Position numbers and translations under genes: made by a program. Positions 1-60,685 of a DNA stretch of 64,000 nucleotides are shown in pieces. The notes under the pieces are model-generated. The model was not told where the DNA came from and did not search any database. It was given only the letters and a program-made list of their open reading frames with translations. Positions within the stretch are counted from its first letter, which is position 1, and every line of letters starts with the position of its first letter. Source of the DNA: Selaginella tamariscina (taxonomy: Eukaryota; Streptophyta; Lycopodiopsida; Selaginellales; Selaginellaceae); contig PUQB01000386.1 in the NCBI GenBank assembly GCA_003024785.1, positions 1 to 64,000 on the forward strand, written 5' to 3'.

Positions 1-528
1 ATATATAGGCACTATAAATGCCATAATATTGGGGTATATATGTTATAGGAGGTATACATTATGTAAAAAATGTTATATATATATCAACTAACTTATTATT
101 AGAAACTTCAATGGTAGTATTATATTGATAGTGTTACTTAAAATTTGTTATGTAAAATAAGAGAAAAGAAAAAATAGTGGCTTTTCACTTTCTAAGTAAA
201 AAAGACTCATTGTCAACTATAATATGTTTTTACAATTTTAAATATAAATATAAATATTTTCAAAATGAAACACTATATTCTATTTTTCAATTTTGAAAAT
301 GTAAGAAAACATGGTTTTATTGTAAAATTATTAACATCATTAGTCAAAAACTTGATTTTATTTTTAAACACATAAGAAAAAGAATAATTATAGGTTTTAC
401 TTTAAAATAAAAAAGATTGAGTGTCAAAAAAAAATTTACTATGTGGTTTTTCACTTTAAATTAAAAAGAAATATAAAAAGAACTAAGTGTTGGTGAAAGA
501 TTGCTCCTTGCCATAGGAGTAAAGGCTA
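1..528 (+). repeat. Left part of segmental copy A (non-coding)
   Basis: AT-rich DNA without a supported gene. It lines up with 49014-49425 (shared phrases such as 'aggcactataaatgcca' and 'ttgatagtgtt') and with part of 48211-48540. Its right end 'aaaggctaa' is the left half of a target whose uninterrupted version can be read at about 47605-47620 ('ggagctaagtcacatg'). Confidence 0.75.
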
Positions 529-529
529 A

Positions 530-776
530 GGGTTGTTTTCGCACCACACTTAGCAATCAAACCCTTAAGTATGGCCTTAATTAATGCAACCGGAAATATG
601 CAATAAATAATGCCGGATGGTAAGTTAAGGGACGCTAAATGACCCCTCCCCCCTCACTTAGTGTCCCTTAACTTTATTTATTACATATTTCTGGCATATT
701 AATTGCATATTTTCTGGTTGCATTAATGAAGGTTATGCTTAAGGGTTTGATTGCTAAGTGTGGTGCGAAACGACCC
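530..776. mobile_element. 247-bp foldback MITE sharing the large element's termini
   Basis: The two halves are imperfect reverse complements. The left arm runs from GGGTTGTTTTCGCACCACAC; the right arm ends GTGGTGCGAAACGACCC at 776. Inner arm sequences also pair ('aatgcaaccggaaatatgca' against 'tgcatattttctggttgcat'). TAA flanks both ends. It has no coding capacity. It shares only about 42 terminal bases with the end of the large element at 15259, as expected for a non-autonomous relative. Confidence 0.7.
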
Positions 777-885
777 TAAGTCACCTATATATTATCTCTG
801 GCTTTTAACCAATGACCATAGACATTAAATTGCTCTAATATTTAACTTTGAACCAATGACCATAAACATTAAATTGCTCTAATAT
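735..885 (+). repeat. 151-bp direct repeat, left copy (TIR end plus target flank)
   Basis: By eye this matches 15218-15368 over its whole length with three substitutions. It consists of the 42-bp terminal repeat, TAA, and about 108 bp of target-side sequence with a tandem 'accaatgaccatagacatt' motif. Both copies therefore contain an element end and the same flank, so 14.3 kb lies between direct repeats. Confidence 0.85.
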
Positions 886-1172
886 GCACGTTGTAACTAA
901 AGTGGGCATGATACGTGAAAATGGGAATATAAAATAAATTACTAATTAATACTTAAGTTTTAATTATTAATTAATCATTTAATTAATATGTAATTAAGCC
1001 TTAAATATTAATTAATTAATTAATTAATCCTTCAATAACCTTACTTAGTAAGGAATATTCCTAAAATATCTTAGAATATTCATATTATTCTAAAAATAGT
1101 TTACAATAATGAAGAAATACTATCAAACATAATTACAAATGAAATCATTTTCTTATCAACATGTTAATTTTT
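886..1172. other. AT-rich spacer without gene
   Basis: No supported gene. At 893-945 the phrase 'gtaactaaagtgggcatgat' followed by 'gaaaatgggaatataaa' resembles the end of the MITE at 43365, so a related end may lie here. The rest is dominated by TTAAT repeats. Confidence 0.4.
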
Positions 1173-2499
1173 TTATAAATACTTTCTTTCTATCATACAA
1201 AGAAATCTTTTCATTTTGTCTAAATCATCACTCTCCGGATTAATCAAATCATTTTGGTCAATATCTTGATGTTGTTGCCACCACTTAACACTCTCACGAA
1301 TGCAATTGGGAGTTGCCATCCTTGTTAATACATAAGATGTGATAAGAGAAGGTCTGCATAAAGGCTCATCTAAAAACTGACGTTCCTTAAGAATAATATT
1401 ATAAAGCGCCCGGTTGCTATCCTTCATTTTATAAAATTCAATATCACGAGAAAGAAAAGCTTCAGGAAATGTATGATACGGTGGATACTGCTCACAAAAA
1501 TTTTCGAGATTCTTCTTTCTGAGGCACGTATCCAAGTAGTTCACTAGCTCATCCATGATATCGGTATCAGAATATGGATCGAAAGTGATTGGATGAATAC
1601 AAGCAATGTTTTGGTTGAGCATAGCCTTCTGAGGAGAGTCGTCTACTACTAACATCTGTGCGTTCTTCATTATCCTTAAGCGACTGATCTCCCCATGAGT
1701 CCCAATTATTCTTTCATTCTTGAAGAAGTATGGCTTGCTTTCCTTTCTTATATTGTGAAATTCGAGAGGTTTATGACACATTCGCTGGTCAAAAATCCAA
1801 TCTTTACGAATCACCTCTTCTGCAACACTACAATGTTTCTTAAGTAAATTCAACAGCGGTGTTAAGTTATGAATCTGCATGCATGACCAAATCCCCACAA
1901 GCGCACCCATCTCCTTAAGCTTTTGAAAGAGACGATCCAACCCTGGACGAAAAATAATATCATATCGAAATTTACCATGACAAGGAATGAAATCTCCTTG
2001 TTTGATTTCTTTTTTCTATCCTGGGGCCTTTGTCGATGAAGCAGAACACCATTGACATCCAACAACACAATATGGCCATGAGTAACATGAGATAGCGTTG
2101 CCTCTTGAATACTTTGCAAATCACTTGTTTGCTCCCTTTCACATTTATCCGTTGCCACTATCTCGTTGCCTATCCCTTCATCATTTAATTGTACATCATC
2201 CTTACAAGATTCAGATATTGCATGCGCTGAAGAAATTGATTTCGGAATTGAAGCCAATAAAAATGATGATGAAGTGGCCCCCATGGTAACGATGTTTTGA
2301 GCTGCATTATTATCCATTTCCTGCATGAACTCTGTCATTCTGACATGTGGCACAAGAAATTGTCGCCAAACCCCTCTCTTACCTCATGGCAATGCTGAAA
2401 ATCCATGTTCTCAATTATTTCATTACATCTGCAAAATGATAATTAGCTGACCTTAAAATTATCAAGGTATATTATTTACCTTGTTAATGTGTGACCCAT
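1173..2499 (-). pseudogene. HAD-superfamily FCP1/NLI-like phosphatase gene with frameshifts
   Basis: The reading frame holds the HAD signature LLDVNGVLL near 2055-2080 and, about 130 residues later, MLVVDDSPQKAML near 1640. The order and spacing, with a GIWSC strand between, fit the FCP1/NLI-interacting-factor domain, which dephosphorylates Ser/Thr on protein tails. The catalytic DxDx motif reads DxN; plant relatives with DVNG also exist, so activity cannot be inferred. An ATG at 2497-2499 followed by a 51-nt GT-AG intron (2429-2479) joins a short first exon to the main exon; an ATG at 2338 is the alternative start. The frame breaks near 2342 and in the T6 run at 2010-2015, where one extra base would restore it. 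It lies downstream of and in the same direction as the ParB/methyltransferase-like gene. C-terminal to the domain is a tail with WWQQHQD of unknown role. Confidence 0.7.
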
Positions 2500-2610
2500 G
2501 TTTGAACTAAAAGCTTCATTAATCCTTGAGAATTTATTTTCTGTACAAATATAAAAGAAATATACAAAAATGCCTTATGTTACACTCATTTACAACTATT
2601 CGTCACTCTA

Positions 2611-5600
2611 TCAATTCATTATCAATTCTTCTTCGCTATTACCTTCTGAGTGAGGCGAAGAAGGTCTAAGCCGCTTGTGAGATGGTTCAAGATCTTCTGC
2701 ATCTTCTATTGATGTTTCCATGGGTCCTGGAGTGTGCGAATGTTCTGTACTCCTCGAGATAACTTCCGGTCTAATATCTGATTGAAGTTCGTTCTCAGAC
2801 TCCGAGATTGAACCAGATTCACCTTCAGAGCTATCGCACTTATCTGGAGGGAACTTTCTCAAATACGCCTTTATGGAATCGTTGGGGTACTCAGTTGAGA
2901 CCCAATCTATCCACTTGTTCAGGTCCTCAACCATGGTCTTATCCTTTTCAACGGCAAACACACATGTATGCCGAAGGTAACACTCCTTCAAGACGGACCC
3001 CCTAGTGCAGTAGTCAAAAACCCACGCATCACTGTGAGGACCCCTAATCAAGTTGACGATGCTCCGTGCCGCTTGACTTGTAATGTTTGGATAACGTACA
3101 TTGTCGAATACGTCACTCATACCTATCGGTGTATCGGATGGAGGTTCAGGGCCGTTGGAGTGCAAACAGATGCCTGGCCAGTCATTTGGAAGCTTGAAAT
3201 TTTTGGCGCATTCCTAACAACCAAGTGAACAACGGTATCAATGCACTTGGGATTAGCATCGTTCATATAAAATCCTGTCCAACGATGTCTATTCTTCTTG
3301 GCGAAGGCGAAGGCAAAAGTATCGGTGACATGAGCAAGAATCAAGAAATAAATACCTGAAAAAGTAGGTATCAGTGAAGAGCGCAAGCATGAATTCAATA
3401 ATAAATACCTTCTATGTATATGCTTGCACGGCTAAGTTTCTCCACCAGATCCTCTAGTGCCCTATCTGTCGAAAGATTTTTTGACACCCGCCGATCCATC
3501 ACGAACAATTGAAACGGTTTCCTACAAGCAGTGATGTTACCCCATAAAGTCTCCGAATCTAACAACAAACATCTGTAGGGCTTGTCGTGATTTGTAGCAT
3601 CCTCCTTTATAAGGTTCAATTCGGTTCTCCGCTGCTGAAGGACTGCCATAAGAGAAGGCGTCATCCCAATGTTCTCCTTTTTGGCGTTGGCGTGCAATAG
3701 ATTCTTGCCCAGATCTTCCGATTGGTTCACCCATTCGACAAGCATATCATCGTTCGTCACATGCAAATATTTGCTGACCTCTTCATATGTTGAAGTCGAG
3801 GTCCAACCCAGTTTGTGGCAGTGTATTCCCAACCACTCCTTGAAATGCCTGACCGTCTTCAACTCCATTGCCTTGAGATGAAAAGGAGAGGTTGGGCTGC
3901 TGTTATTAATTTGTAGTTTGCCATCGATCACCAAATCAGCCAAGACTTCCATCTCCTCCATCGTTGTTCCATTTAAAGGCTTCAACCATGTGAGCTTGAA
4001 ATCGTTGTCTACATCCTTTGTAGATTGAACAGACTTAGCCTTCGGCGTCTTACTGGGTTTCTTTGCAGACTTTTCTGAGGGCTCCCCTTCACTTGTCTGC
4101 TTCTTCTTCAGTGTTCCTTTTGAAAAGGATTCCATAATCCCCAACCATTTGGCAAAGATCTATCTTCGGGGCAAGAAATCAACATCATCAGAAAGGATGT
4201 TTCCTTCCCGCCCACCTGGGCAAAATCAACTGCTGCAATTTCTTCAACTCTCTGAGGAAAAAGACAGATTAATATACCGGCGAGATAAATCCCGCCCAAA
4301 CAATTTGCTTACCCGGTATTCCGCAGATTGTGTATTCCCTGCGGTAGCTCTTTGTGGTCGCTGAAGAGATTCCCACACGGCTCGCGTGTGTTTAAACTTC
4401 TCCCATATTTTGCTGTTGTAGTGGTTGGTGTCGGCAGCGTCCCATTCCGCCGATAACTTATGGTACTGCTCGATTGTGAGATTCGGCTTAGCTAAAAACG
4501 CCGATCTTTTTGTCAGCTTCTCACGGGTATGCTCGGAAAGTTTTGTTGCCATCGTTCCTTTGTTGTGTTCCTCGAGAAGTCGTTGGGCTGCCGTTATTGT
4601 GTGCTGGCCACTAATGATGTAGTACTTGATAGATTTTTTATTCTCCGTCTGAATCTTCATGAGTTGTTCTGGTGTTGTGATCCAGACTTTGTCAGCGCCC
4701 TTCCTTCTTTCATAGTATGGACACAAAACAGCATTATGTGGAACGGTATAAGAATTGTCGTCCTTCATCTTCTCCATGAGCTCAGCTACACGTTCCTGGT
4801 TGAGTGGCCTGTAATTGAAGTTTGGGTTGACGCTGCAATATTTAACCCTACAAGGATAAATCTTATCATCCAACATCATTTCCTTGTGACTTATTGCAGC
4901 ATGAGATGCCACAGGTGCAGCTGACAAAACGATTGATGATTTTCTTTTGCGATCCGAATCAACATGTGTGATCCCCGACTGCAGCTGTTCTAGTGTTCTC
5001 GGTACACTCTTCCAGCTCCCAAAGCTCCCTAAGCAAATTGAACGTGATCTGTAGAGAACCTGAGACCGAGCCACCCTCTCAATCTCCATTATGATGTCGC
5101 TGTGTTCTTCTTCAATGTGAAGAGGGAAGATTGCTTCACTTGCTGATTTTCTGTATTGTGAAGCAATATCTCCTGACAATACACCTACTCGATGAGTCTG
5201 AAGATTTTCGAAGTAGACATCCAGATGGATCCCCTCCATAGATGGGCTTTCGTTGAGTTGAAGAAGAACTCCAAGGTCAACATCATTAGTGAACACGTGA
5301 ACGTCATTATCCACAAGTCGACAAAACCACCCGAAATTAATGTTGTAACTGACGACCTCTGGATCCGAGAACGTGACATTGGATGGAACAAGGCATATGT
5401 GTCGAGCATCGTCCAATCTGGGTTCGCAGCCTGCTTTCGGGTGCTTGACTAGCGAATCTACTTTCCATTGTTTTGCTTGTCCATGAGATGTGACAGAGGT
5501 TAATTTGACAGCAGCCATGGTTGCTCCAATGCGCTTCCCATTTATCTTAAAATATGGCCAAGTTGATTCCAGAATCCCCCTGCCCATCTCTTCTCCTGCT

Positions 5601-5753
5601 CTTGTCTTTAATGTCACCTCAATTCCACATCTGAATACAAAAATGATTAGTTCAAGTATCCGAGTATAACAGATTTTATTTTAATTCTTACCCAGAATTT
5701 GACGACGACTCCATACTAATGACTCGATCTCCTTGTTTGATCAAATCGTCCTT
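2611..5753 (-). CDS. ParB-like domain fused to degenerate DNA-methyltransferase-like domain
   Basis: Inferred exons are 5692-5753 (ATG at 5712-5714), 4313-5630, 4216-4251, 3409-4159 and 2611-3355, separated by GT-AG introns of 61, 61, 56 and 53 nt that keep one frame; the product is about 955 residues. The middle carries NQERVAELMEKM and then YYIISGQHTITAAQRLL (near 4575-4625), the look of a ParB/sulfiredoxin-fold domain with its G-x-H motif. Next is a lysine-rich stretch (KKKQTS...KKPSKTPKAK), possibly a nuclear signal or DNA contact. The C-terminal third resembles bacterial N4/N6 DNA methyltransferases: CLLLDSETLWGN at the place of the DPPW motif, and WVFDYCTRGSVLKEC...VFAVEKD as the SAM-binding strand. 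Both motifs are eroded, so catalysis is doubtful. The tail is Ser/Glu-rich. One frame break lies at the T5 run 3200-3204. ParB-like is the firmer call; methyltransferase-like is an inference from motif order. Confidence 0.55.
4279..4296. repeat. Copy of the 18-bp dyad inside an intron of the ParB-like gene
   Basis: GGCGAGATAAATCCCGCC sits in the inferred intron 4252-4312. It is identical to the array member at 7393-7410, so the element's repeated dyad also lies within its own ParB-like gene. Confidence 0.85.
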
Positions 5754-5855
5754 CTGCAAAATAATACACTATAAATAAAATTATATAAAAACGCACACAC
5801 ACTTGTATAAACCCGAATATACAAAAATAATACACAGAGAGAAGTAGACGTAATT

Positions 5856-5942
5856 AACTGTCCGAAGCTCACATTTGTGTTAGTGCAAAAGAAAGATAAC
5901 ATTTCGTTTTAGAACCACCACAAATGTGAGCTCTGGACAGTT
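5856..5942. other. 24-bp stem / 39-nt loop hairpin upstream of the ParB-like gene
   Basis: The arms 5856-5879 (AACTGTCCGAAGCTCACATT...) and 5919-5942 pair at 22 of 24 positions. It lies between the first inferred exon of the minus-strand gene and the first dyad array. It could be a regulatory hairpin, a small-RNA precursor or a MITE footprint; the sequence alone does not decide. The rest of 5754-6050 shows no gene. Confidence 0.6.
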
Positions 5943-6055
5943 TTACATAGATTCCTAGCTTTTACTCGAAATATTATGATAAGATGATAAAAGTAAATAA
6001 AATGAGATATGCAACTTATATATACTAATACACATATATATTCACATGGAAGGTG

Positions 6056-7578
6056 CGGCGGGATTAATCTCGCCACCCCTTCAATGCCTCCTGAAAGAGT
6101 GGGCGGGATTAATCTCGCCACCTTTCTGGAGGCCTTGAACGGGAGTGCGGAATTAATCTTGCCACCCTTCTCGGTCTCAGAGAGAACTGGGCAGGATTTA
6201 TTTCTCACACCCCTTCAGTGACTCCAGAAAGGGGCGGGATTAATCTCGCCCACCATGTAAGTGATGGTTAAATGAATTTCCCCACCCTTCCCAATTCTCT
6301 CCATTGGTATGTTGAAAACCTTCTACGTCTCAGACAGAAACGTTTGGGATTGGTCCGACTCACCAATGGAGAAAAAAGGAAGGGTGGCGGGATTCATTCC
6401 TCCAACAGGCATTGAAGACTCGGCGGGATTAATCCCGCCGCCCAGGGCCTTCACTCGTCCCTATGCGGCGGGATTAATCCCGCCGGACGCCAATTCCCTG
6501 CGCGGAATCGGGCGGGATTAATCCCGCCGCCTAGGCACTTCAGGCAGGCCAATGGCGGCGGGATAAATCCCGCCCGATTGCGCAGGGAATTGGCGTCCGG
6601 CGGGATTAATCCCGCCTCCCAGGCCCTTCACTCGGGCCTTAGTCGGCGGGATTAATCCCGCCGAACGCCAATGCCCTGTGCGAAATCTTGCGGGATTAAT
6701 CCCGCCGCCTAGGCCCTTCAGGCAGGCCAATGGCGGCGGGATAAATCCCGCCCGATTCCGCGCAGGGCATGCGTACGCGGCGGGATTAATCCCGCCCACC
6801 ATGTAAGGGATGGTGAAATTAATCCCACCACCCTTCTCAGTTCCCTCCATTGGTATTTTGTAAACCTTCTCCGTCTCAGACAGAGTTAGTCGGGATTGAT
6901 TCAACATACCAATGGAGGAAAAAAAGAAGGGTGGCGGGATTAATCCCGCCACCGGGTAATGAAGGTTCGGAGAGACTAATCCCGCCGCCCTCTCGTAAAT
7001 CATGCGCTCACACATATATATTGGCTGCGGCATTTTGAACAGGGATGGGTGGGGGCGGGATTAATCCCGCCGCTTATATCCTGCGGAAGTGCCTGAGCGG
7101 CGGGATTAATCCCGCCGCCCTCCGCGAAGGGCATGAGCGTGGGGCCGGATTAATCCCGCCGTTCATGTCCTGCGTGAATTCCCTGGGCGGCGGGATTAAT
7201 CCCGCCGCCTTACGCGCAGGACATGTCATGCAGGCTCTTCGGTTAGCCTTCCGTGCAGGATCTTTCATGCAGGCTCTTCGGTTAGCCTCATGAGCGGCGG
7301 GATTAATCCCGCCGCCCATCCCCTGTAAATGCCCTGCGCGGAATCCGGCGGGATTAATCCCGCCCATTAGGGCCTTCACACAGGCCATTGCCGGCGAGAT
7401 AAATCCCGCCGCATTCCGCGCAGGGCATGGGTGAGCGGCGGGATTAATCCCGCCGCCGAGGCCCCTCACGCAGGCCATGGGCGGCGGGATTAATCCCGCC
7501 GCTCTTCGGTTTGTCTAGAGCGGCGGGATTAATCCCGCCGCGAGGCCATAAACCTATAGCGGCGGGATTAATCCCGCC
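6056..7578. repeat. Dyad array 1: about 28 copies of GGCGGGATTAATCCCGCC
   Basis: About 28 copies, 16 of them perfect 18-bp palindromes. Many extend to the 20-bp palindrome CGGCGGGATTAATCCCGCCG (for example 6421-6440). Starts at 6422, 6467, 6511, 6557, 6599, 6645, 6689, 6735 and 6779 give a 42-46 bp spacing; 7054, 7099, 7143, 7189 and 7347, 7393, 7437, 7483 keep it. Spacers differ but are drawn from a few forms that also pair with each other; 6467-6616 is a large inverted repeat. A block at 6233-6400 recurs at 6781-6950 with its own inverted repeat (CCTCCATTGGTAT / ATACCAATGGAGG). The leftmost copies are the most degenerate. Confidence 0.95.
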
Positions 7579-7584
7579 GCTCGA

Positions 7585-7669
7585 GGGGCTTAGCGTGTGT
7601 GCGAGAGATAAAATTAATAAATAAAAAAATTATACAGAAAAACACACACATATATTGTGTGTGTGTGTG

Positions 7670-7716
<47 letters not shown>

Positions 7717-8340
7717 TAGGAGTGTACGTGTGTGTGCAAGAGATAGATAAATAAATAAAATTATACAGTACTGGTACACATAATATATGTGTGTACATAG
7801 GTATATATATGTGTGTATATGTATATCGTGTGTATGCGTGTGAGCGAAACAAATAAAATCATACAGATAAACAAACACACACACACATATATATACACAG
7901 GAGTGTGCGTGTGTGTGCGAAAGATAAAACTAATAAATAAATAAAATTATACAGATAAACACACACATATATATGTGTGTATATAGATATATAATCCATA
8001 GAGAAAGAGAGAGAGTCTGTGAATATATAAGCATATATATAAACTAGTGTTGTATGTATGTATATATGTATATAGGTATATATATATGTGTATATGTATA
8101 TTGTGTGTATGCGTGTGTGAGCGAAACAAATAAAATCATACAGATAAACACACACACACACACACATATACATACACAGGAGTGTGCGTGTGTGTGCGAG
8201 AGATAAAACTAATAAATAAATAAAATTATACAGATAAACACACACATATATATATGTGTGTATATAGATATATAACCCATATGAATATATAAGCATATAT
8301 ATAAACTAGTGTTGTATACTATTTGTTAATATGCATTGAT

Positions 8341-8404
<64 letters not shown>

Positions 8405-8695
8405 GCAGTGTGCGTGTGTGTGGGAGAGATAGATCAAAAAAAAAAATTTACAGATACTGGTACACATAATATATGTATGTATATATGTATATAGGTATAT
8501 ATATATGTGTATATGTATATCGTGTGTATGCGTGTGTGAGCGAAACAAATAAAATCATACAGATAAACAAACACACACCCACACACACATATACATACAC
8601 AGGAGTGTGCGTGTGTGTGCGAGAGATAAAACTAATAAATAAATTTATACGCACACTCCTATACATATATACATACATACACACACACACACAGA
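7585..8695. repeat. Compound TG/TA microsatellite and minisatellite
   Basis: Higher-order units mix (TG)n, (TA)n and phrases such as 'gagagataaaactaataa' (7919, 8198, 8620) and 'gagcgaaacaaataaaatc' (7842, 8119, 8539), repeating at about 280 bp. A long (TG)n run lies at 8360-8400. No gene is supported; the open frames across it are Thr/His/Ile/Tyr-rich translations of repeats. Confidence 0.9.
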
Positions 8696-8739
8696 TCTCA
8701 CCTGTGTGCACAGCCGCCGCCGCCGATTTCACAGCCGCC

Positions 8740-9640
8740 GCCTCTTGAAACCCTAAGAATATACCTAAACCCTAAAGGAATTAAATATATATATTAACCC
8801 TAATAGAATATTCCTTCTGAGAATATACTTAAACCCTAAAAAGAATAAAATATAGATTCGCCCTAAACGAATATTCTTTCATTATATTATTAGCGCGTGC
8901 GTGTGCGTGGGTGTATCACATACACCCCAAAAATATAAATCATGCAGGGATTTAACATGTGTGTGTCCATGAGAGTGTTAAAGTTTCATGTGTATCAATA
9001 CATACATACACATTGCATATATTAATACACATATATATACATACACATATACATACATATTACATGGGTTTAGGGTTTAGGGTTTTGGATTTAGGATGGA
9101 TCATGCATGGTGTGTATGTATGAGAGAAGAGAGAGTGTTGAAAAATTATTTTTGTACACATTGCATATATTAGTACACATATATACTTACACATATTATA
9201 CACAGATTATACATACATTAGTATTATGAGAGAAGAGAGACAGTACATATTATGGATCATGCATGGTGTGTATTATACACACAGACATACATACATATTA
9301 GTACATAATATTAGAGAGACCGAGTACATATTATAGATCATGCATGGTGTGTATGTTTGAGAAGAAGAGAGACGTACATATTAACATGGATCATGCATGG
9401 TGTGTATGTATGAGAGAAGACAGAAAGTACACATATATACATACAGAGTACACATATATACACACACGTGTATACACACAGACATACATACATATTACAT
9501 GAGTAAATTCATTGTGTTACATATTAGGGTTTAGGGTTTAGGATGGATCATGCATGGTGTGAAGAGAGAGTGTTGAAAAATTATTTTTGTACACACATGT
9601 ATACACAGGGTTTAGGGTTTAGGGTTTAGGGTTTGCTCCC
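8740..9640. repeat. Telobox / interstitial telomere-like repeats and 'ggatcatgcatggtgtg' repeats
   Basis: AAACCCTAA-type motifs occur at about 8747-8845. The opposite orientation TTTAGGG occurs at 9066-9082, 9526-9541 and as about four tandem units at 9607-9632. Between them 'ggatcatgcatggtgtg' plus 'agagaagagaga' recurs near 9097, 9244, 9336, 9388 and 9545. No gene was seen here or in 9641-9880. Confidence 0.85.
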
Positions 9641-9883
9641 AACAAGCTTAATATAAATATTACACATGTAAATTCAATGTGTTACATACACACAGATTGA
9701 GTACATATATCATACATGCGTTGAACATGATGTTTTCAATAAAGAAGCAACATATTTCTTCAGTTTGGTTTAGGGTTGTGCATGTGTGTGCATATGTGTT
9801 TTTGTAAGTTCTTGTAATGCGTGTGTAAATTTATGATTGTGTTTATATATGTGTGCAAAACAAACATCGAATAATTAAGAAAA

Positions 9884-10620
9884 TAATATTAATAAACACA
9901 CTATGAACATATTTTAAATTATACATAATAATATATGATTTTATCTAATATATAGCCATATATAGTTTTAATAATATATATTAATTTAATATTGATAAAA
10001 AGGTTTAACATTGAAATATTCTTGAAATAATAAGAAATTAATTGAGAAAATCCCATTAATATATACAAATGTAAATTAAGTACTCAAATAATTAACTAAA
10101 TTAATTATCATAATCATGTTTAATATTGGAATATTCTTGGAATAATAAGAAAATAATAAAGAATATCCCATTAATATAAAGAAGATTAATTACTCAAGTA
10201 ATTAAGGAAATGATATTAAATATATATTATTAAAACTATATATGACTATATATTAGATAAAATGATGTATTATTATGTATAATTTAAAATATGTTCATAG
10301 TGTGTATTAATTTAATATTGATAATAAGGTTTAACACATGAATATTCTTGAAATAATAACAAATTAATTGAGAAAATCCCATTAATATATACAAATGTAG
10401 AATAATTACTGCAATAATTAAGAACAAGACTAATTTAATTATGATAATCAGGTTTAATATTAGAATATTCTTCAAATATTAATAAAATATTAAAGAATAT
10501 CCCATTGATACTAGGAAATGAAAACTAAATACTCGAGTAATTAAGAAAATAATAATAATAAACAGACTATGAATATATTTTAAATGATACATAATAATAT
10601 ATCAATTTATTTATTGTATA
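9884..10620. repeat. AT-rich inverted and tandem repeats in the element centre
   Basis: About 92 bp at 9890-9981 reappears as reverse complement at about 10215-10310 with few differences, and again in direct orientation near 10555-10600. Between and beyond them a unit of about 120 bp with 'gaaaatcccattaatatat' or 'aaagaatatcccatt' recurs at about 9984, 10114, 10306 and 10440. No gene is supported. Confidence 0.85.
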
Positions 10621-10799
10621 AGTATATATTTATATATATATATAATATAAATATACTTGAATACTAAGAATGTAGAATATAGTCTAAAATTTCGTAATAT
10701 TAAACAGCTTGAATCACTTGAATAACATTAAATGCAATTTTAAAATACTCAGAGTGTCGGATATTTGTGTCAACTCATCTTAAATTTTATTTTCTGTTC

Positions 10800-12208
10800 T
10801 TTTTAAAAATTTGAATTTCTGACATATGTATTGTCGGTCTGACATGTAAATTTGAAAATGCATTTAATTTCCCACTCAAATTCAGATCTGGTTCTTTCTC
10901 CGGCAAGGGTTTCTTCATTTCTGTATTTTTCACTCTTTAGATCTTCTTTTTTCTTCATAGTGATCATCTCAGGAGCGAGATTAAATTGGGTGCTATTCTT
11001 TATAGGAAAGCACGGCGCCTTCAGTGCTGTTTACAAGTAAGTATTATAAACAAATTTAAAAATACTTATAAAGATTCACTCTCTTACATTCTCTCTTAAA
11101 ATTACAATTTAGGGGTTTAGGAATGCATTAGGATTATAATATATTCCGTTAGGGATTTATCCCGTTTAAATATCCTTTTAACTTAATATTCTAGGTTAAC
11201 CGGGGCGGCGGGATTAATCCGGCCATTTCTTTTTGCCTCTTCGAAGAGGTGGCGGGATTAATCCCGCCACCATCTCTCGGGCAATGCTTCTCCGCCACTG
11301 AAAAAGAGTGGCGGGATTAATCCCGCCGATAACCTTCTCAACTGATGAAGAGTTACCAGAATTTATTAGAAAGAGTTGTTGGCGGATTAATCCCGCCAAC
11401 CATTTTAGGAGGCAGGGAAGGGGTGGCGGGATTAATCTCGCCACCACATCCCTGTTTTAAGGATTTGGGGACAGGATTTATCCCGAGATCTCTTTGAAAT
11501 CATAGTTTTGGAGAGAGTTATGTGCGGGTTTAATCCCGCCACCCATTCCCCGTCGTAAGAATTGTGGGCGGGATTAATCCCGCCTTGGACTCCCTCCGAC
11601 AAGGAAGAGCCGGCGGGATTAATCCCGCCGCCTCTTCCTCCTCGGGGGAGTCCGGCGGGATTAATCCCGCCGACTCTCTCCGACGAGAGAGTCCGGCGGG
11701 ATTAATCCCGCCGACTCCCTCCCGAGAGAGGTCGGCGGGATTAATCCCGCCGGCTCTTCCTTGTCGGAGGGAGTCCAAGGCGGGATTAATCCCGCCGACT
11801 CTCTCCGAAGGGGTTGAGTCGGCGGCGGATTAATCCCGCCGGACTCCTTCCTCGTCGAGAGAGTCGGCGGGATTAATCCCGCCGGACTCCCCCGAGGAGG
11901 AAGAGGCAGCGGGATTAATCCCGCCGGCTCTTCCTTGTCGGAGGGAGTCCAAGGCGGGATTAATCCCGCCGACTCTCTCCGAAGGGGTTGAGTCGGCGGC
12001 GGGATTAATCCCGCCGACCGTTCCTCGTCAGAGGGATTCGTGGGCGGGATTAATCCCGCCCATCAGTTGTATTAATCAAACATGAGATATTATCTCTAAA
12101 CATAATTATGTATTATTGCATATGCATATTATTAAGTAACCGTAATTCAGATTTCTTAGAAATATTGCATAAACAGATATCATAAATAATACAATTATTT
12201 ATGTGCAG
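10800..12208 (+). promoter_or_regulatory. Probable 5' leader exon and long leader intron of the transposase gene
   Basis: A less AT-rich stretch ends at the donor 'tttacaa|gtaagtatt' (intron from 11037), and 'ttatgtgcag|gacaatatg' at 12199-12208 is a good acceptor just before the transposase ATG. The 62-codon open frame ending at 11040 is out of phase with the transposase after this splice and has no family look, so the exon is taken as untranslated. The inferred 1.2-kb intron would contain dyad array 2. This is inference from splice motifs only. Confidence 0.35.
11207..12060. repeat. Dyad array 2: about 18 copies of GGCGGGATTAATCCCGCC
   Basis: Eighteen copies, 12 perfect. From 11567 the starts are 11567, 11612, 11654, 11695, 11734, 11779, 11824, 11866, 11909, 11953, 11998 and 12043, so spacing is 39-45 bp. 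Spacers here carry 'gactctctccgacgagagagtc'-like text that is itself palindromic, and the spacer set is shuffled and inverted within the array. The spacers differ from those of array 1 while the 18-bp core is the same, pointing to selection or conversion on the core. Confidence 0.95.
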
Positions 12209-12214
12209 GACAAT

Positions 12215-15200
12215 ATGTTTAATACTGGAGATAAAGTATGTCTTCTTCGGAACAACGAGATAGTTGGCACTGGAACTGTGGAAGTTCGAGATAATAATGC
12301 ATCATGTCACAATATTGCCCAAGGATCTTGTGTGTACGTATGGGTGAACACCATTTACAAGCATGTTGAGGTTCTGGGAATGGAATTTGAGGAGGGTTCT
12401 CCTGTATTGTGGAATTTGGATGAAGTCAAGGCTGACACAGAATATGCAGAGTCACAAACAAATAGTAGCACGAGTTTACCAGATGATGGCTTGCCTGCTG
12501 TGATGGATGAGGTGATTCTCTTTCTTCATGAGATTGAAGTCGGAAGAGGCATCATCACAGCTATAAATCCAATGGAAGCAGTGTCAGAAGAGAAACTAGG
12601 GTCCGACTTCGTGGGTGTAGTTGTGACAGAGGTTTCACCTAATGGCACATTGTATCCTGGATCCCTCGTGAGGTGGCGAACATCTGAATTAAGACGGCAA
12701 GATGGTTCAACATATTCTGGGTTGGATTTCAATAATAACAACCCGGAAGAACAACTCATATTTGAAGAGGTTCCTTGCATTGGTCCTATTGTAAGAAAAA
12801 GGCGATTCATGGGTTGTAGATCTTCCCCTGCAAGTTTCAGCAAGAGGGTAAAGATGGATCCTACATCTTCCGAAAGTGTTACGACATTTCCACGATTGAC
12901 TGTTGCAAGAAGAAGTGTTGTCAGATGGCAGACCGGAATGAAATTACCCAATGTAGACATGTCTTTCGTATGCTCACCCAAAAGCAAAGGCATGAGTTTG
13001 TATATGCTGCACTAACTGGGTGTATTGATGGAATGGCCTCAGACACAGGTTATCAGAGTACATCCATGGTATTTAATAAGGTGGCCATCTGCTTCAAAGC
13101 TTGGTACAGTATATACGGGATCCCAAAGACCACGTTCTACCGTCGGAGGGATGAGTGGCTAGACGGAGCGCGAACCTTAATTCATGGGAACACTCGCTTG
13201 GTCAAAACCCGCTCTCACATCATGGCAGCCATAGAGATACTCAAGGCTTTTGTGGAAGCAAATGCAGACAGGATGCCTCACAAATGCCGAACCACAAATG
13301 CAGGGGTCAGGGAAAATCTCAAGGTTTTGCCTTCAATCTACACTAATTGAAACTGTGTGAACATGTGAACAAGTGCCTCAGTTTGATGGGGCTCCAAGCA
13401 ATCTGCACTGGTACCTTCAACAACATATGGAATACTCATTTTAAGGATGTGGAGATTGCAAAACACTCTAGCTTTTCTAAGTGTGACACTTGTACATCAT
13501 TGAAGGCTGCAGAGGCTTGTGCAAAAACCTTGGTGGAGATCACTACCATTCAAAGGAAGATGGAGGCCCACATGATTGCACAACAAACTTGCCGGTCTCA
13601 GTACTATGCACACCGCATGCTTTCTGTGTCACGCCCATCAGAGTACCTGTGCTTAATCCATGACAAGATGGATCATTCAAAGACCAGCTTCCAAAGCTCT
13701 TTGCAACACCAAAGTGCCTTGGAAATGTCATGAAACTTCCGATTTCATTGACAGGTTGCTAACACATGGACACGGTTGTGAGTCATATGGACACTTTTCA
13801 CTTCCACATTGGTCTAGCGACTCCAATTTCACTATTGGGTCGTTAGCCATGTGTTTCAGAAACCTTGAAGCCCACTCACAGACAAGTCCTATCAGTGATC
13901 TCAAAGTGAAGAAACAACACCTTCAACCTTTACATAATGCTCTCATGAACACATCTCACTTGAGGCTACTTGGGAATATGAGAGGCATTGTCAACAGCCT
14001 GCACAGAAATAGATGGCCCTGTTGAGAGTTCTGGTTCAGTGGAGGGATCTAGCTCAAATAGTGTACATGTGTCCTCAACATCAAATAAGCTTCCTTGTCA
14101 TTTGCTTTTACAGATGGATAATTGTGCAGGCGAGAACAAAAATAGGTAAATCATTTTACTTAAGGGTTCTCAAGCTCATACTTACTTTATTTTCTAGATA
14201 TGTGCTAGCATACTTGTCAATGCTTGTTGCCAAAGGTGTGTTTGAAACAATCACGCTCAGTTTCCTTATGGTTGGTCACACTCATGAAGATATTGATGCG
14301 TTCTTCAGCAAGGTCTCCAACTCTACAAAAGGACAAGTGCACTTACCTTACCGCATATGATGAATCTTTTTGAAAATTGCATCTCCAAAAAAAGTTGTGC
14401 TTTGCTTGTGACTGAGGTGCCAGACTTCAAAAAATTTCTCAAGGAGTATATAAAAGAAGGGAGTGATTCTTTAGTTGGTCACCTTGTGCCGCTACAATTC
14501 TTTTTCTCCATACGAGATGATATACCTATTATGCAGTACAAGTTATGGCCATCAGAGCATGAGTGGTTACCGAAAGAGGGCTTAATGCTCTTCAAAAGTG
14601 GAGAGGATGGAAAGCCACTTCTCCCAGAAGGACAACCAGACCCTATCCATTGAGTGCCCAGCTCAAGGAACAAGAGGTTATTATTGATGGCATCAAAAAA
14701 TATGTGGCATGGGTTCAAAAATCGATGCCAAAGAATTTTGATAAGGCAACTGGTTACTCAGAACTATATAAGCATGTGGTCAACTATTGGGAGACTGTTG
14801 TTCGAGAGTTGGAAGGGCCTACTGTCACAAGTACAGAATTGCAACACCCTTTCTGGCCTAAAACAAGGTGGCGAGAGGAGATTGAAATGACATCACTGAG
14901 CATAGATGACATAGAAGCCAGTAGTGATGTGGAAGTGCAAACCCCACACTTTGTTGGACAAAGGAACCAAAAACCTAAAGCATACTTTGATTGCTGCAAG
15001 GATCTTCAAAAACTAATGATGGTTCTCATTACTCCAGATGCATCATATAATCAGCCTATTTGGATGGGTCAAATTATCGAACACCTGAAGTAATCACAAA
15101 AAATAGTATTGTTAAGGTTGCATGGTTCAAACCACAAAAAAGGCGACACGAGAAGGAGAGCGAAAGATATAATGGATGCCTAGAGAAAACATGGTCTCCC

Positions 15201-15233
15201 AATCAAAAAGACCCAGCATGCTTAAGGGTTTGA
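12215..15233 (+). pseudogene. DDE-like (DUF7869-type) transposase gene, frameshifted
   Basis: Exons 12215-12790, 12841-14145 and 14198-15233 are joined by GT-AG introns of 50 and 52 nt; intact length would be about 970 residues. The N-terminus has two small beta-rich modules (FNTGDKVCLLRNNEIVGTG and VILFLHEIEVGRGIITAI) like those of plant transposase-associated proteins. A Cys cluster (CCKKKCC) and CDTC follow. The core has LCLIHDKMDHSK, then LLQMDNCAGENKN across the second intron, then VGHTHEDIDAFFSKV. These three acidic motifs match the pattern of DUF7869-type proteins and suggest an RNase-H-fold DDE nuclease; the family name is from memory, not a search. Frame breaks lie near 13350, 13684, 13755, 13983, 14331, 14650 and 15085, most explained by one lost base. 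The stop codon 15231-15233 is inside the right TIR, tying the gene to that terminus. Confidence 0.65.
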
Positions 15234-15368
15234 CTGCTAAGTGTGGTGCGAAATGACCCTAAGTCACCTATATATTATCTCTGGCTTTTAATCAATGACC
15301 ATAGACATTAAATTGCTCTAATATTTAACTTTGAACCAATGACCATAAACATTAAATTGCTCTAATAT
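15218..15368 (+). repeat. Right copy of the 151-bp direct repeat (right TIR 15218-15259 plus flank)
   Basis: The first 42 bp are the right terminal inverted repeat, then TAA, then about 106 bp of copy-A flank. The flank continues to 15387, where the Ty3 element enters a third repeat of the 'accaatga' motif. Confidence 0.85.
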
Positions 15369-15387
15369 ATGGTCGTAAACCAATGAT

Positions 15388-15759
15388 TGTCAAGCCACGA
15401 TTCAAGAGCATAATAAGAACAAGGAGGCTTGACTTCAAAAGCAAGGCAAGAGCAAAGAACAAGACAAGAACAAGGAACAGAACAAGAATGATCGTAGAAT
15501 GACTGGTATTGAGAGTAACTAATTGTATAACAATTAGGTCGAAGCTTTTATATTCACGACTTCAAGAGCTAATCTAGGCATAAGCTAAAAATAATACTCT
15601 AGGAGCTAATCTAGGCATGAGCTAAAAATAATGTCCCTTATCCTATAGGTATATCTTGTAAGCATATCATGTAGGCATATCTTATTGATATATCCTGTAG
15701 GTGTATCTTATAGGCATATCATGTATCTTGTATTATGTATTCTGTATCGGGTCGTGACA
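15388..15759 (-). repeat. 3' LTR of Ty3 element 1
   Basis: 372 bp, starting TGTCAAGCCACG and ending TCGGGTCGTGACA on the plus strand; it matches 19052-19413. Confidence 0.92.
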
Positions 15760-15872
15760 ACACCTCCTCCCTAAGGATGAGTTTTATGAGTCTTGGGACC
15801 TGGTTTAGCAGGATAACATTGATGGAAGGAAGCAACCTTGGAAGAAGTATGGAGTAAATTGGATGCAGGTTT

Positions 15873-17000
15873 TCAAGTGCGATTGGTAAGCAAATAACCT
15901 TTCCAATTCACCAAGTATTGAAGTTGGCAGTGATGAAGACGAGAATCAAGGATGGCTGCAACTTCGTACTTAGGTTCATCGTCAATAACCACAGGAGGGG
16001 GAGGAGAAAAAGCACGACTAGGAAGGGAAGAAGGATGATACGGTTCCAACAAAGAGGTGTGAAACACAGGATAAAGTTTCACAGTAGATGGTAGTTCTAG
16101 TTGAAAAGCTACAGGATTGACCTCAGCCACAATCCTGTAAGGGCCCAATCATTGAAAATCCAACTTAGAAGAAGGCCTGTTGGTGTGAATATGCCAACAA
16201 AGAAGCCATATGAGATCACCAATCTTTTATGCATGTGCCAGCTGACGATGAGCATCAGTATGACGCTTGTACTGTTCCTAATAGATGAACTCGGAGATCA
16301 TCTTGTACATTACGAAGATGCTAAAGATGATCCTATACTGCATGAGCGGAAGAAGGAAAAGTATAAGGAGCAAAGTCAAAATGTGGATGGTAGCCAGTAA
16401 GAGCAAAGAAAGGTAGATGCGTGAATGGAGTTGTTGTAAGCAAACTCTACCATAGGAAGAAGGTCCAACCAATTGTCATGTTGGTAACTGATGAAGCAGC
16501 GAAGATAATGCTCTAAGGTCTAAATCGTGCGTTCTGACTGTTCATCAGTTTGCGGATGATATATTGAAGAAAGATCCGCTTTAACTTGTAAATTCCGGAG
16601 AAGCTCTCGCCAAAATCTGGACATGAATTGTGGGTCTCGATCAGAAACAATGCTCTCAAGAAGACTATGATGTCGGAACACTTTGCGGATCACCAACTCA
16701 GCAATTGTCTGGCTTGTAGCCGTTTTGTTACAGGGTAAAAAATGAGCATGTTTGGTGAAATGGTCAACCACTACAAGAACTGCATCAAATCCATGAGAAG
16801 GAGAAAGATCTCTGAAGAAATCCATAAATGGATCTCCAAGAAGCAGAGGGAACATGAAGAGAACGAAGAAGACCAGAGGGTGCGTGATGAAGCATCTTTG
16901 ACCTGTTGCAGGTGTCACAACTCCGTAAAAACTTTTTCACAAAACCTCGCAACCTAGGCCACCAATAGTTGCGAGTCACCAACTCAACTGTCTTGGCCAC
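15873..17000 (-). pseudogene. Integrase plus chromodomain region of Ty3 element 1
   Basis: The zinc-binding part shows NYWWPRLRGFVKKF and CDTCNRSK. The catalytic core shows VVVDHFTKHAHFLP, SIVSDRDPQF and HPQTDEQSERTI, the D, D and E positions of retroviral-type integrases. Farther on is FHTSLLEPY and then YEVAAILDSRLHH...YLVNWKGY, a chromodomain-like end typical of chromoviruses, which direct integration into chromatin. Frameshifts and stops break the region, so no active protein is expected. Confidence 0.88.
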
Positions 17001-17170
17001 ACCAAAATGTCATGTAGTCAGGGTATCATGACAATCCTGTACCACACGAATCCTGTAAACACCAACAGGAATGTACATAAGACCTTCTTAGTACATGAGT
17101 CCGTCTTGTATGGCAAACAACTTGTAGTCTGTATGGGAACTAGAGGAAGAGGAGTTTGTGATGTTAGGAC

Positions 17171-18330
17171 TTATGTGTGAGAACACATTCTTTGCCAAAT
17201 CGGTTGTAGCCAATTGCAAACGGATGCCCTATAGAAGTGTTGAATATGCTGGAGCCTGATGAACCTGTAGTGCCACAAACCAAAATTGATCAGGACCCAA
17301 CAACATTTGCTTTTGACAGTCATATGCAGGATTGCCTGGGGTTGGTGCAAGGTAAGAACGCCTAAACAATGCATCCGCTTTGCCATTTCAAAAACCAAGC
17401 ATGTATATGATGACAAAATCAAAACGTGATAAGAATTCAGCCCACCTAGCTTGTCACCGACTGAGAACTCGAGCCGTTTTAAAAAACTTTAAGTTCTTGT
17501 GATCCATAAGAACTTGTACAGGATGCACAACACCTTTCAGGAAGTGCCGCCACTCCTCAAACGAATCCACAATGGCCTTGAGTTCCTTGTCATAAATCTC
17601 ATAATTGACCTCCATCAAAAGGAACTTATGAGACTTGTCTTCTCCAACTTGTGATAGGATAGAACCTACTGAAAAGTCCGAAGCATCTGCTTCAACAAAG
17701 AAAGGACGAGAAAGATCAGGATGTGCTAAAATCGGAGCTGTTGTGAAGGCGTCCTTGAGTGCTATGAATGCATGTTCCACCTTGTCGGACCAAGAGAAAT
17801 CCCTTGTGCACTTGGTGAGTTTCGTGAGTGGAAGTACGTGTTTGGAGAAGTCATGTATGAATCGCCTGTAGAAATTTGCGAAACCAACGAAACATTATAT
17901 GTCTCGTACAGACTTAGGCCTCTCCCAGTCCATAACAGTCTTCACCTTGTGCATGTCTATTGAGACATTGGCAGGAGAGATGATGTGCCTAAGAATTCCA
18001 CAGTATCCCTGTCGAAAAACACTTCTCCAACTTCGCATATAGGCCATGCTCGTGAAGCTTCTATAGAACTAATTGTACATGCTTGTCATATGCTGCTTGG
18101 TCCTTGGAGAAAATCGGGATGTCATCGAGGTAGATCACCACAAATTGATCCAAGAAGTCGTGAAAGATGTTGTTCACCATATGTTGGAACACAGCTGGGT
18201 ATTTATAAGTCCGAAAGGCATTACCATGTACTCGAAGTGTCCATACCTTGTATGAAAGGCAGTCTTCCACTCATCGCCTGGACGAATCTGTACAAGATTG
18301 TAGGCCCCTTGTAAGTTGATTTTCGTGAAC
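17171..18330 (-). pseudogene. Reverse transcriptase / RNase H remnant of Ty3 element 1
   Basis: RNase H shows FFVEADASDFSVGSIL and LMDHKNLKFF, RT shows VVIYLDDIPIFSKD and, upstream, [16 protein letters not shown]. The N-terminal RT and protease are absent: just upstream of the RT text the frame runs into gag text near 18328-18350, so an internal deletion has joined gag to RT. Several frame breaks follow. Confidence 0.85.
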
Positions 18331-18339
18331 ACCTTTGCT

Positions 18340-18951
18340 CCTCAAGGTCATCCACGTCATCCCTCAACCCAAAACGGAAGTGTTCGATTAATGCAGTCTC
18401 ATCGCATGGAATGTTCATGCAAAATTGTTGAAATTTGGATGCATAGACGGAAACTAGTCAAGATCCTTGTGCGAATTTCCTTAACTTTGCGCATGCAGAA
18501 CGGTACTTATTAAGATTTCCAAAGTAGGCTTCAAAGGCAGCTACAAATCCTTCAAAGTCTTCCATCAATGGGTCGTCACGCTCCAGCAAAAGGGCAACCC
18601 AAGCCCGTGGGAATCCAATAGTAAGGATGCCAAAAGCCAACTTTTTTGCATCAATCAAGTAGCGGCGTGGTTGCATGTGGATCAAAAGCCTGATCTAATT
18701 CAGGAAACCTTGGAAATCGGTGCGATTGCCACTGGACTTCTCTGGTATGTTAATCTTTGGCTCTGAAGAATCAATGGAGAAGGAACCACGGATGCTTGAG
18801 AGAGAGCTTGCGCAACAGCCTTGGAGGATGCATCAGTAGCTGCATGCGCCGCGCTGGTGGAACTTTGTAGATTTTGTGACCACTTGGCGCAAAGTGGCCA
18901 ACTCATGAAGCAACATTTGGTGCTCGCGTTGAAATTGCTCAAAATTGCCAT
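18340..18951 (-). pseudogene. gag remnant of Ty3 element 1
   Basis: Minus-strand frames read LLERDDPLMEDFEGFVAAF, ACAKLRKFAQGS and LIEHFRFGLRDDV, matching the usual Ty3 capsid pattern. There is an out-of-frame junction between the N-terminal segment and the rest near 18690, and the C-terminal part including any zinc knuckle is deleted. Confidence 0.75.
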
Positions 18952-19051
18952 GATCTGTGAAAGAAAAGAAAGGAGGAAAACAAGGAAGAAGAACCAAGAA
19001 AAAAAAAAGTAATTGGAAATCGAAAAGTTATGAAAGTAGTTTTTATCAAAC

Positions 19052-19413
19052 TGTCAATCCACGACCCAAGAGCATGATAAGAACAAGGAGGCTTGACTTC
19101 AAAAATAAGGCAAGAGCAAGGAACAAGACAAAAATGATCGTAGAATGATTAGTGTTGATAATAATTAATTATACAACAATTAGGTCGGAGCTTTTATACT
19201 CACAACTCCAAGAGCTAATCTATGCATAAGCTAAAAATAGTACTCTAGGAGCTAATTTAGGCATGAGCTAAAAATAATGTTCATTATCCTGTAAGCATAT
19301 TTTGTAAGCATATCCTGTTGATATATCCTATAGGTATGTCTTATAGGCATATCCTGTATCCCATATCTTGTATCCTATAGGTCGTATCCTATATTTTATA
19401 TCGGGTCGTGACA
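19052..19413 (-). repeat. 5' LTR of Ty3 element 1
   Basis: 362 bp, TGTCAATCCACG...GGGTCGTGACA on the plus strand. It differs from the other LTR by many substitutions and small indels, so the insertion is not recent. Confidence 0.92.
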
Positions 19414-21499
19414 ATGACTATAGACATTAAATTGCTCTATTATTCACAATGTTTCCCAAACACTCCATACAAGCCATTGAGTAAACATGTTGCTTTTATT
19501 ACATACGATATGTCTCAAATATTAAATCATTTTAAATAATTAATGACATTGATATTTTATGTTTGTCTTATTCCTAAACAATTAATTATGTGCATGCGTG
19601 CCTATGTGCACACATGGATGTGCCACGTGCACATGTACATGTTGTGCATAAGTGCATAATATTTTGTGCAAAACGTTTTCAACAACAAAATTAATTAATC
19701 AATTAATTAAAATTTAATTATATTTAAACAAGGACCTATTAACCATGTTTTTTATATATGATGTATTTTAAAACTTTAAATCAAACAAACCTTTAAAGTT
19801 AATGCATTTCATTTATACATATGATATAGATGTGCATATCATTATCTTTGCTATATAATTAATCCTTTGGCATTTCGTCGAATGTGTGCATAATTGACTT
19901 AAAAAGTTTAAATCAATTGTAAGCACACTTATGATATATGATAATTTTTTATACTATTTGCAAACTACTGTTAGGTTCTTTTATTAAGGATGAGTCAACA
20001 GCATTCTCCACAAATATTATGCTAAAAACATTGATATGAACTCATACTCAATATCTTGCATTGAACTTTTATCTTTTTATTGTTTCTTGTTAGTGGCATT
20101 ATTCAAATATGGGGAAATGAACTTGACCAAAAGATAAGATGGATATGATAGGATGGGATATGTAGATGTTCTATGAATTTAAGTTGGTTTGACAAAGTGA
20201 TTGTGTTAACATGGCATGTTGTTTATTTTTTATTGTTATTTTAAGTTTCAATTGGTGTGGCTTAAACACTTTGTAATGTTGTTGTAGCCTTTCTTTGTGA
20301 TGTGTTATGTTTGTATGATTCATCCATTAGCTCAGCATATGGGCTTTTGTACATCACACCGTCAATGGCCATAGGAGTTTTTTTTTCAGTGCCTTTATGG
20401 AAGATAAATTTGTTTGTGTTTTAGGGTGTTGGATTGTGTGGGTTAAGCACTTTCCATTGCATTTGTGTTCTAGTTTCATCTTTCTTAGTGATGTTTTGGA
20501 TATGTTTATCTTTTGTTACTGAAGAATATTCAATAGGGATATTCTTGAGAATATGCAATAGAAAACATGCTATTTGTATTTGGAATATATTTCCACAGCA
20601 TATATGGGTTCTCCACTTGTGATTGCTTTTATGCTAGGCTTTCATGGAATTGTTTCATTTTATTTTGTCTTACATTTGTTTAATCTTGGTTGGTTTGGTT
20701 TGTCTGGCTCATGCAATAGTATTTTAATATACAATAAAATCATATGCATCTCAAGCTTTTAAATAAGAAACTTTTAGGTATTTAAATATTCTTTTGAATA
20801 TTTTTAAATATTGTGGAGGTAACATATGGTTAACATATAATATTTCTTATTACATGTATCTTATATTGTGATTATATACACTTTTTTATGTCCATGTTGG
20901 GTCACATCCAAAGCTTCTTTTCGAAGCACCAGCACATGGTCAATTTCATAGGTAATGATGGGTTTAATCTTAATATCATCCTTATATAAAACAAAGGAAT
21001 TGTACAGAAGACTATGTATATATGTAGATACACCAACACATCTAGGAATCTATTAACCTAAGGGACTTATTTGTTATTCCAAAAACCCTAAATCACATGC
21101 TACATATTGAAATCTCCTCACTTGAAAAGATGTATTTATATGTTTTAATTTTATATTTTATTCTAAGTATACATGATGTTAAAATGTTATTTTATATATA
21201 CCAAAATAGATATTACTTGAACTCTAATGGTAATACTATATTGATAGTGTTACTTAAAATTTGTTATGTAAAATAAGAGAAAAGAAAAAAGGCAAGTGGC
21301 TTTTTCCACAAAAGCCACTAAAAAGAATATGTGGCTATGAATGGGAAAAATCATTTTGAAAAACCACTAATGGCATAAGATTTATGTTAATGCTAACATT
21401 TTGTGGCTTTGTAAGGCACTATTAATAGTGCTAATGTATGTGCTTTGATGATGATTTTTTGTGTAGTGCTTTTTATAAAGGGTGCTATTATAGTGGTTC

Positions 21500-21670
21500 T
21501 GTCATAGTTCTAACCTGGTGGGTTGACTACCTGGGTAAAGATTGTGGGATATGTGGGATATATGGGCAAAAGACCCAAGCAGACCTGGGTAATCACGACC
21601 AGGGGCCTCTCATAAATACTAATTGGCCCTTTGCCTAATTGACATAAGGGGAAAGGGAAAAGTTGTGACA
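21500..21670 (+). mobile_element. Solo LTR of a small LTR element (TRIM family)
   Basis: 171 bp, TGTCATAGTTCTAACC...AAAGTTGTGACA, flanked by GGTTC and AGTTC. At the matching place in copy B the whole TRIM element (51422-52157) is still present, so this solo LTR arose in A by recombination between LTRs after the duplication. Confidence 0.85.
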
Positions 21671-29032: not shown

Positions 29033-29084
<52 letters not shown>

Positions 29085-33417: not shown

Positions 33418-33429
33418 AACTGCAACTAA

Positions 33430-38400: not shown

Positions 38401-38427
38401 AAAATTGTGTCGTTCACCATATCGGCT

Positions 38428-60651: not shown

Positions 60652-60685
<34 letters not shown>

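Follow-up and report, generated by a model that had tools for sequence, protein, structure and literature searches.

The first 64,000 nucleotides of contig PUQB01000386.1 of Selaginella tamariscina, referred to here as the window, carry one copy of a transposon of about 14 kb in which one and the same 18-bp palindrome, or dyad, forms an array upstream of each of two divergent genes. The element consists, in order, of a phosphatase-like gene, a ParB-like gene, array 1, about 3.6 kb of intervening DNA, array 2 and a DUF7869 gene for a putative transposase, with inverted terminal repeats at its ends. We lean, with modest confidence, towards cis-regulation by one of the element's own proteins; of these, the ParB-like protein is the likeliest to bind the dyads at both divergent promoters. 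The name ParB-like is used throughout as a label only: it rests on one sequence motif and the residues around it.

A preliminary description of this DNA had placed about 46 dyads in two arrays beside the ParB-like gene, with one more in an intron of that gene, and our counts agree with it. At up to four mismatches the palindrome GGCGGGATTAATCCCGCC occurs 47 times in the window (28 copies exact), with 28 copies on the ParB-like side, 18 on the transposase side and a single copy in the ParB-like intron (Table 1). At up to two mismatches there are 41 matches, including the 28 exact ones, as compared with none in 100 shuffles. Even when five mismatches are allowed, all 48 dyads in the 64 kb fall inside positions 4279–12060, in keeping with the earlier remark that the dyad was not seen elsewhere in the window. 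Read in the direction of the gene, the intron dyad is GGCGGGATTTATCTCGCC, with two mismatches.

The dyad has sharp limits. Across 340 dyads from the window and ten dyad clusters described below (A–J), each of the 18 positions holds 1.19–1.97 bits of information, whereas the 40-bp flanks nowhere exceed 0.48 bits; the choice of dyads by their likeness to the consensus favors the inside but does not create such an edge. The two half-sites in this set have nearly mirror-image profiles. The spacing between dyads peaks at 44–45 bp. Because the spacers differ between array 1 and array 2 and are found either way round (in seven stretches, similar spacers form 41 like-oriented and 21 inverted pairs), the dyad persists through turnover of the arrays.

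The pairing of gene and arrays recurs, at fixed positions, in a high-copy family. In the source genome assembly (300.7 Mb, 1391 contigs), exact dyads number 27,128, and a reversed control gave 0. With the four central bases left free the total is 28,856, so that 94% have the TTAA center; the other centers among the matches listed are TAAA or TTTA. The first 100 exact-dyad places listed group into 11 clusters within the first 2.08 Mb of one contig, C1, and the surroundings of all 11 were compared. Coding pieces of one element family lie beside the dyads in 10 of these clusters, among the matches listed, and the eleventh consists of one isolated exact dyad, lying some 1.3 kb beyond an element. 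Copies A–F have all of the genes. Copy G has pieces of both sides, the main ParB-like exon not being among them; H has ParB-like and phosphatase pieces only and I has transposase only, the fetched stretch possibly cutting off the other side; and J has fragments of both sides. The concern that arrays might commonly be found without the gene is therefore not borne out in the C1 sample, where one cluster (I) showed transposase only.

Within the seven two-gene copies (the window and A–F), dyads at up to four mismatches keep three places. The one nearest the start of the second ParB-like exon lies 416–435 bp upstream of it, the one nearest the transposase start lies 129–172 bp upstream, and the intron contains a single dyad; all 7 of the 7 copies agree on each point, with the exon and transposase starts partly extrapolated from alignments. 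Three dyads fall outside these places: one in the flank of E and two in D, where their places match the intron and the upstream stretch of another, older ParB-like copy.

A search with the main ParB-like exon gave 6594 first-look candidates, of which 95 were scored; at least 75 of these have at least 97% identity and no stop, a few of them being partial, and ten places, including the window, reach the full score. The corresponding search for DUF7869 gave 4250 first-look candidates, with 150 scored. On the contigs common to both listings, 10 of the 17 scored ParB-like places have a divergent DUF7869 place 8.2–8.7 kb away, among the matches listed. The main ParB-like exon is thus present in many near-identical copies, and the transposon family has been active recently. 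Runs of N stand upstream of the ParB-like genes at two loci (L037 on contig C798 and L038 on contig C479), where array 1 is expected; the assembly may break in the arrays, in which case the dyad counts would be too low. Open frames of 1127 residues (C798) and 1797 residues (C479) that resembled gene fusions were rejected as runs of N.

A relative on another contig, C488 (L029, L039, L040; C488:162000-183000), reached by way of the older ParB-like copy in D, extends the pairing of gene and dyads to a second ParB-like family. The C488 protein is 47% identical to that of the window over residues 3–257 and 32–44% identical over later pieces, and the gene has dyads of its own. Eleven are recognizable, ten upstream and one in the intron region, about 45 bp apart and with other spacers, and the center is TAAA or TTTA in all 11. 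In the intron, a weak dyad-like stretch aligns with the intron dyad of the window and a better copy lies about 27 bp further along; elsewhere the two introns do not align. The decayed dyads before the older copy in D appear similar by eye, and a palindrome scan there returned none. No transposase or phosphatase piece was found in the 21 kb examined at C488, which may be a remnant or a unit of its own.

The suggestion in the preliminary description that this is a ParB/parS-like system survives in part. The motif YYIISGQHTITAAQRLL is present in the ParB-like gene (its first codon starts at 4624, minus strand), and the linkage of gene and arrays stands as set out above; support from profiles, from the PDB and from HH comparison did not emerge. 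No ParB model in Pfam, PHROGs or NCBIfam matches the protein at E up to 10, PDB sequence searches returned either no match or one unrelated chain at E 0.13, and an HH comparison with three bacterial ParBs, a small yardstick, was not significant, with the NP-helix region aligning where expected at a probability of 0.2%. The GERRxR stretch of bacterial ParB reads SGQHTIT in this protein (SGQHTITAA), so that the motif arginines are absent, and no ParA-like family is listed among the open reading frames (ORFs) of the element in Pfam scans. Homologue searches with the protein found nothing. In virus and prokaryote collections, the dyad pair matched no viral contigs and no species genomes, and the protein gave one pattern match among viral contigs that is not a relative. 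Sub-threshold Pfam matches of the gene to unrelated families (BUD3 PH, IL31) and a PHROGs match of unknown function at E 0.16 were taken as chance, and NCBIfam gave no match to it. The ratio of nonsynonymous to synonymous change (dN/dS) of the ParB-like exon, measured against the window copy, is 0.19–0.65 in the six comparisons with a value, of which that for locus L028 is raised by a locally shifted stretch, that for E rests on seven changes and values in general are raised by decayed copies; the seventh comparison, with C488, is saturated and gives no value.

The DUF7869 protein is best read from locus L027, where the gene is open in two stretches read as exons that match the family at 1e-26 and 2.6e-12, over the curated cut-off; the broken piece in the window scores 13.8 bits, below the cut-off. 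Pfam assigns DUF7869 no function, and the term was not found in the open-access literature searched. We call the protein a putative transposase on the strength of the inverted repeats, the copy number and its motifs. An N-terminal stretch of it resembles the N-terminal stretch of the ParB-like protein, with a score of 58 that none of 1000 shuffles reached, and this part of the transposase has a sub-threshold match to Transposase_23 (TNP1/EN/SPM, PF03017) at E 0.1. An internal repeat of the N-terminal stretch within the transposase is not supported (266 of 1000 shuffles as high), and Pfam matches of the ORFs to HTH_psq, GATase_2 and rhabdovirus families were taken as chance.

We propose that the ParB-like and transposase genes would be transcribed apart from the central region, each downstream of an array of one palindrome, and that a protein of the element, most probably the ParB-like one acting as a dimer, would bind the dyads along the arrays; the binder, its dimerization and its cooperativity are all suppositions of this model. 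Bound protein would keep both promoters active, probably by opposing host silencing in the manner of VANC and TnpA, though with unrelated parts, or else would serve as a plain activator or autoregulator. What the comparisons show directly is the arrays, their constant positions, a dyad conserved amid changing spacers, linkage throughout the family and a dN/dS below 1 in the ParB-like exon; the direction of the outcome, whether activation, anti-silencing or autorepression, is something we infer. Because dyads are found ahead of two divergent genes and in an intron, and the arrays are not at the transposon ends, we favor the binding of a regulator over partition or the pairing of ends. Among the roles first suggested for the arrays, transcription control at the promoters fits the dyad positions best; partition-like clustering has gained no positive evidence, and bringing the element ends together does not suit arrays that lie centrally.

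Several observations weigh against this proposal. The relative at C488 stands without a transposase piece in its 21 kb, the change of center amounts to one contrast between two families, and the dyads of young copies are alike partly through the youth of the copies. Apart from the dyads themselves, the CpG content does not point to low methylation, because the observed/expected ratio, which is 1.0 and 1.08 in the arrays, is 0.61 in the array spacers and so does not exceed the values for host DNA in the window (0.61 and 0.47). It is also the case that the transposase, or both proteins, could bind the dyads, because of the resemblance between the transposase stretch and the ParB-like N-terminal stretch. 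If the transposase did so through its N-terminal part, autorepression or bringing the element together would be the expected purpose. TnpA-type sites exist in CACTA elements, which together with the N-terminal likeness speaks for such a role, whereas the dyads here are kilobases from both inverted repeats and C488, though possibly a remnant, keeps the ParB-like gene and its dyads with no transposase piece in 21 kb. We consider this quite unlikely.

The arrays could instead be sites of a host protein, either an exploited activator or a silencer, with the ParB-like protein doing something else. Promoter arrays can serve host factors; a host factor would, however, be expected to have sites elsewhere, and the C1 clusters have element coding pieces in 10 of 11 cases. 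The site center also differs between the two ParB-like families, and we regard a host binder as a serious if rather unlikely alternative. A true ParB/parS-like system, in which the protein loads at palindromes, slides or condenses and clusters the element copies, would account for palindromic sites that adjoin a gene with a ParB-resembling motif, and for the place at which the NP-helix region aligns, low as the probability of that alignment is. A partition role is nonetheless unlikely, given that an integrated element needs no partition, and with profile support, the GERRxR motif and a ParA-like family among the scanned ORFs all missing we think such a system very unlikely. Finally, the arrays might be structural, forming hairpins or cruciforms (as a source of small RNA, or in replication or recombination) with no sequence-specific protein. 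The palindromes are perfect, and the spacers do occur in both orientations; in addition, paired positions in 494 dyads show 57 double changes, 38 of them complementary, and pair 4/15 is changed on both sides 27 times against 15 expected. Overall, however, the 57 double changes are close to the 51.9 expected, with no clear excess, and the center pair is changed on both sides 0 times against 2.8 expected. The complementary changes and the excess at pair 4/15 may largely be CpG-type transitions from decay on both sides. What is kept is the sequence, beyond symmetry alone, which makes a hairpin role unlikely and leaves purely structural arrays highly improbable in our estimation.

In En/Spm (CACTA) elements the sites of TnpA are located near the element ends. 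Here the sites are central, the ends read TGCA and Pfam scans list no CACTA transposase family, a possible point of likeness being the sub-threshold Transposase_23 match. With bacterial ParB/parS the element shares clustered palindromes beside the gene and a GQHT motif in ParB-like order, but it differs in having no profile match, no motif arginines and no ParA-like family in the scanned ORFs, and in being an integrated eukaryotic element. Two published accounts indicate that the Arabidopsis VANDAL/VANC system has in common with it a non-transposase element protein, dense arrays of a short motif upstream of the transposase and in introns, and arrays that gain and lose units fast (PMC5735166, PMC10398659). 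In the first, VANC21 and VANB21 carry arrays of VANC21 motifs in their introns and VANA21 has them upstream, the motif is a directional 9-mer, and VANC has DUF1985/DUF287 (PMC5735166). In the second, TnpA activates Spm in correlation with demethylation, and VANC, TnpA and MURA are named as transposon proteins linked to the loss of DNA methylation on their own elements (PMC10398659). The Selaginella element, in contrast, combines a DUF7869 transposase and a ParB-like protein unrelated to VANC with a palindrome of 18 bp, and neither DUF1985/DUF287 nor a Mutator transposase is listed in Pfam scans of its ORFs. VANC and TnpA of Spm are the closest working model, although the element belongs with neither, its transposase, protein and site being different. 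No description of this dyad/ParB-like transposon system was found in the open-access literature searched.

It is conceivable, as a speculation with only a small chance of being correct, that the transposon took up a ParB-type DNA clamp, which would load at parS-like palindromes heading both promoters, spread along the element and exclude host silencing from all copies in trans. Such a sequence-addressed means of anti-silencing would be unrelated to VANC and TnpA, and its site recognition would have changed together with the protein between the two families.

The features of the window copy are collected in Table 1. Copies A–F have one common order, with the phosphatase-like and ParB-like genes on one strand and the transposase on the other, an inter-array stretch of about 3–4 kb with few or no dyads and an end-to-end length of about 13.6–14.8 kb. 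Both ends are present in A–F and read TGCA[ACT]GTTGTAACTAAAnTGGGCATG, with small changes between copies; the flanks are A/T-rich, and no target-site duplication is common to the copies compared. The window copy runs from about 885 to 15223, breaking off some 600 bp before the right end that other copies reach, and its own right inverted repeat is gone. Frameshifts interrupt its transposase gene and its third ParB-like exon, which are open in L027 and L028, respectively.

Table 1. Coordinates of the transposon copy in the window, with the basis for each feature.
Feature	Position	Strand	Basis or remark
Left terminal inverted repeat TGCACGTTGTAACTAAAGTGGGCATG	885..910	+	(Near-)identical at left ends of A, B, C, D and F; E altered at tip; inverted at right ends of other copies
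NIF/FCP1-type phosphatase-like gene	1173..2383	-	Pfam NIF 3e-9 for 1173-2015; same place in A-F
Final open stretch, ParB-like gene region	2611..3213	-	ORF; collinear pieces in A-H
Third exon, ParB-like gene (frameshifted here, open in L028)	3395..4251	-	Limits suggested by splice signals
Intron dyad of ParB-like gene	4279..4296	.	Mismatch search; identical in 8/9 aligned copies, altered in old copy J
Second exon, ParB-like gene; SGQHTITAAQRLL motif; N-terminal stretch shared with transposase	4313..5630	-	ORF, comparison
Proposed first exon, ParB-like gene (MESSSNSG)	5692..5714	-	Suggested by splice signals
Upstream array of ParB-like gene (array 1; 28 dyads, ≤4 mismatches)	6057..7578	.	Mismatch search
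Dyad-free stretch between arrays, mostly A+T-rich with simple repeats	7579..11206	.	About 3.6 kb
Upstream array of transposase gene (array 2; 18 dyads, ≤4 mismatches)	11207..12060	.	Mismatch search
DUF7869 putative transposase gene, end approximate, broken in window copy	12215..15217	+	ORFs, profile match via L027
Right truncation: end of a foreign small element replaces last ~600 bp of transposon	15218..15262	+	Alignment with other copies

Inverted repeats at 527–776 and 15218–15262 had been taken as candidate element ends and were dropped after alignment of other copies. By eye, 527–776 is a small element with long inverted repeats. Its right end with about 110 bp of flank (735–885) recurs, 98% identical, at 15218–15368, where it truncates the transposon. 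The phosphatase-like protein of the element reads LLDVNGV where a second frame at 38353–39156 (plus strand), FCP1-looking by eye, reads LVLDMDRT; a motif Asp thus seems to be altered in the element's protein.

The window also contains a large duplication (19508–30918 and 49426–62510), of which the main pieces are 91–93% identical and one is 82% identical, together with a left flank piece (3–406 and 49010–49426) that is 88% identical. The second copy lacks, at 49426, the stretch 406–19508 that includes the transposon, an arrangement resembling an empty site. Two elements appear Gypsy-like by eye (15388–19414 and 31660–35373); the first lies in the right flank of the transposon and has end repeats (15388–15760 and 19052–19414) that are 79.5% identical. 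PPR-like reading frames and CCCTAAA-type repeats, noticed by eye, fit a plant host. A tandem array occupies 54527–56024, for which overlapping predictions give units of up to 257 bp.

If our proposal is true, this transposon family would be a further independent case of a transposon protein linked to the loss of DNA methylation on its own elements, in another transposase class and with a very clear 18-bp target. A single genome offers about 27,000 exact sites, the ParB-like exon is open in at least 75 copies, and the system allows a clean test with one protein, one palindrome, two promoters and one intron site. Should binding be demonstrated, the element would also provide a module for addressing DNA, along with a natural experiment in the joint change of a protein and its site, TTAA in one family versus TAAA/TTTA in the other.

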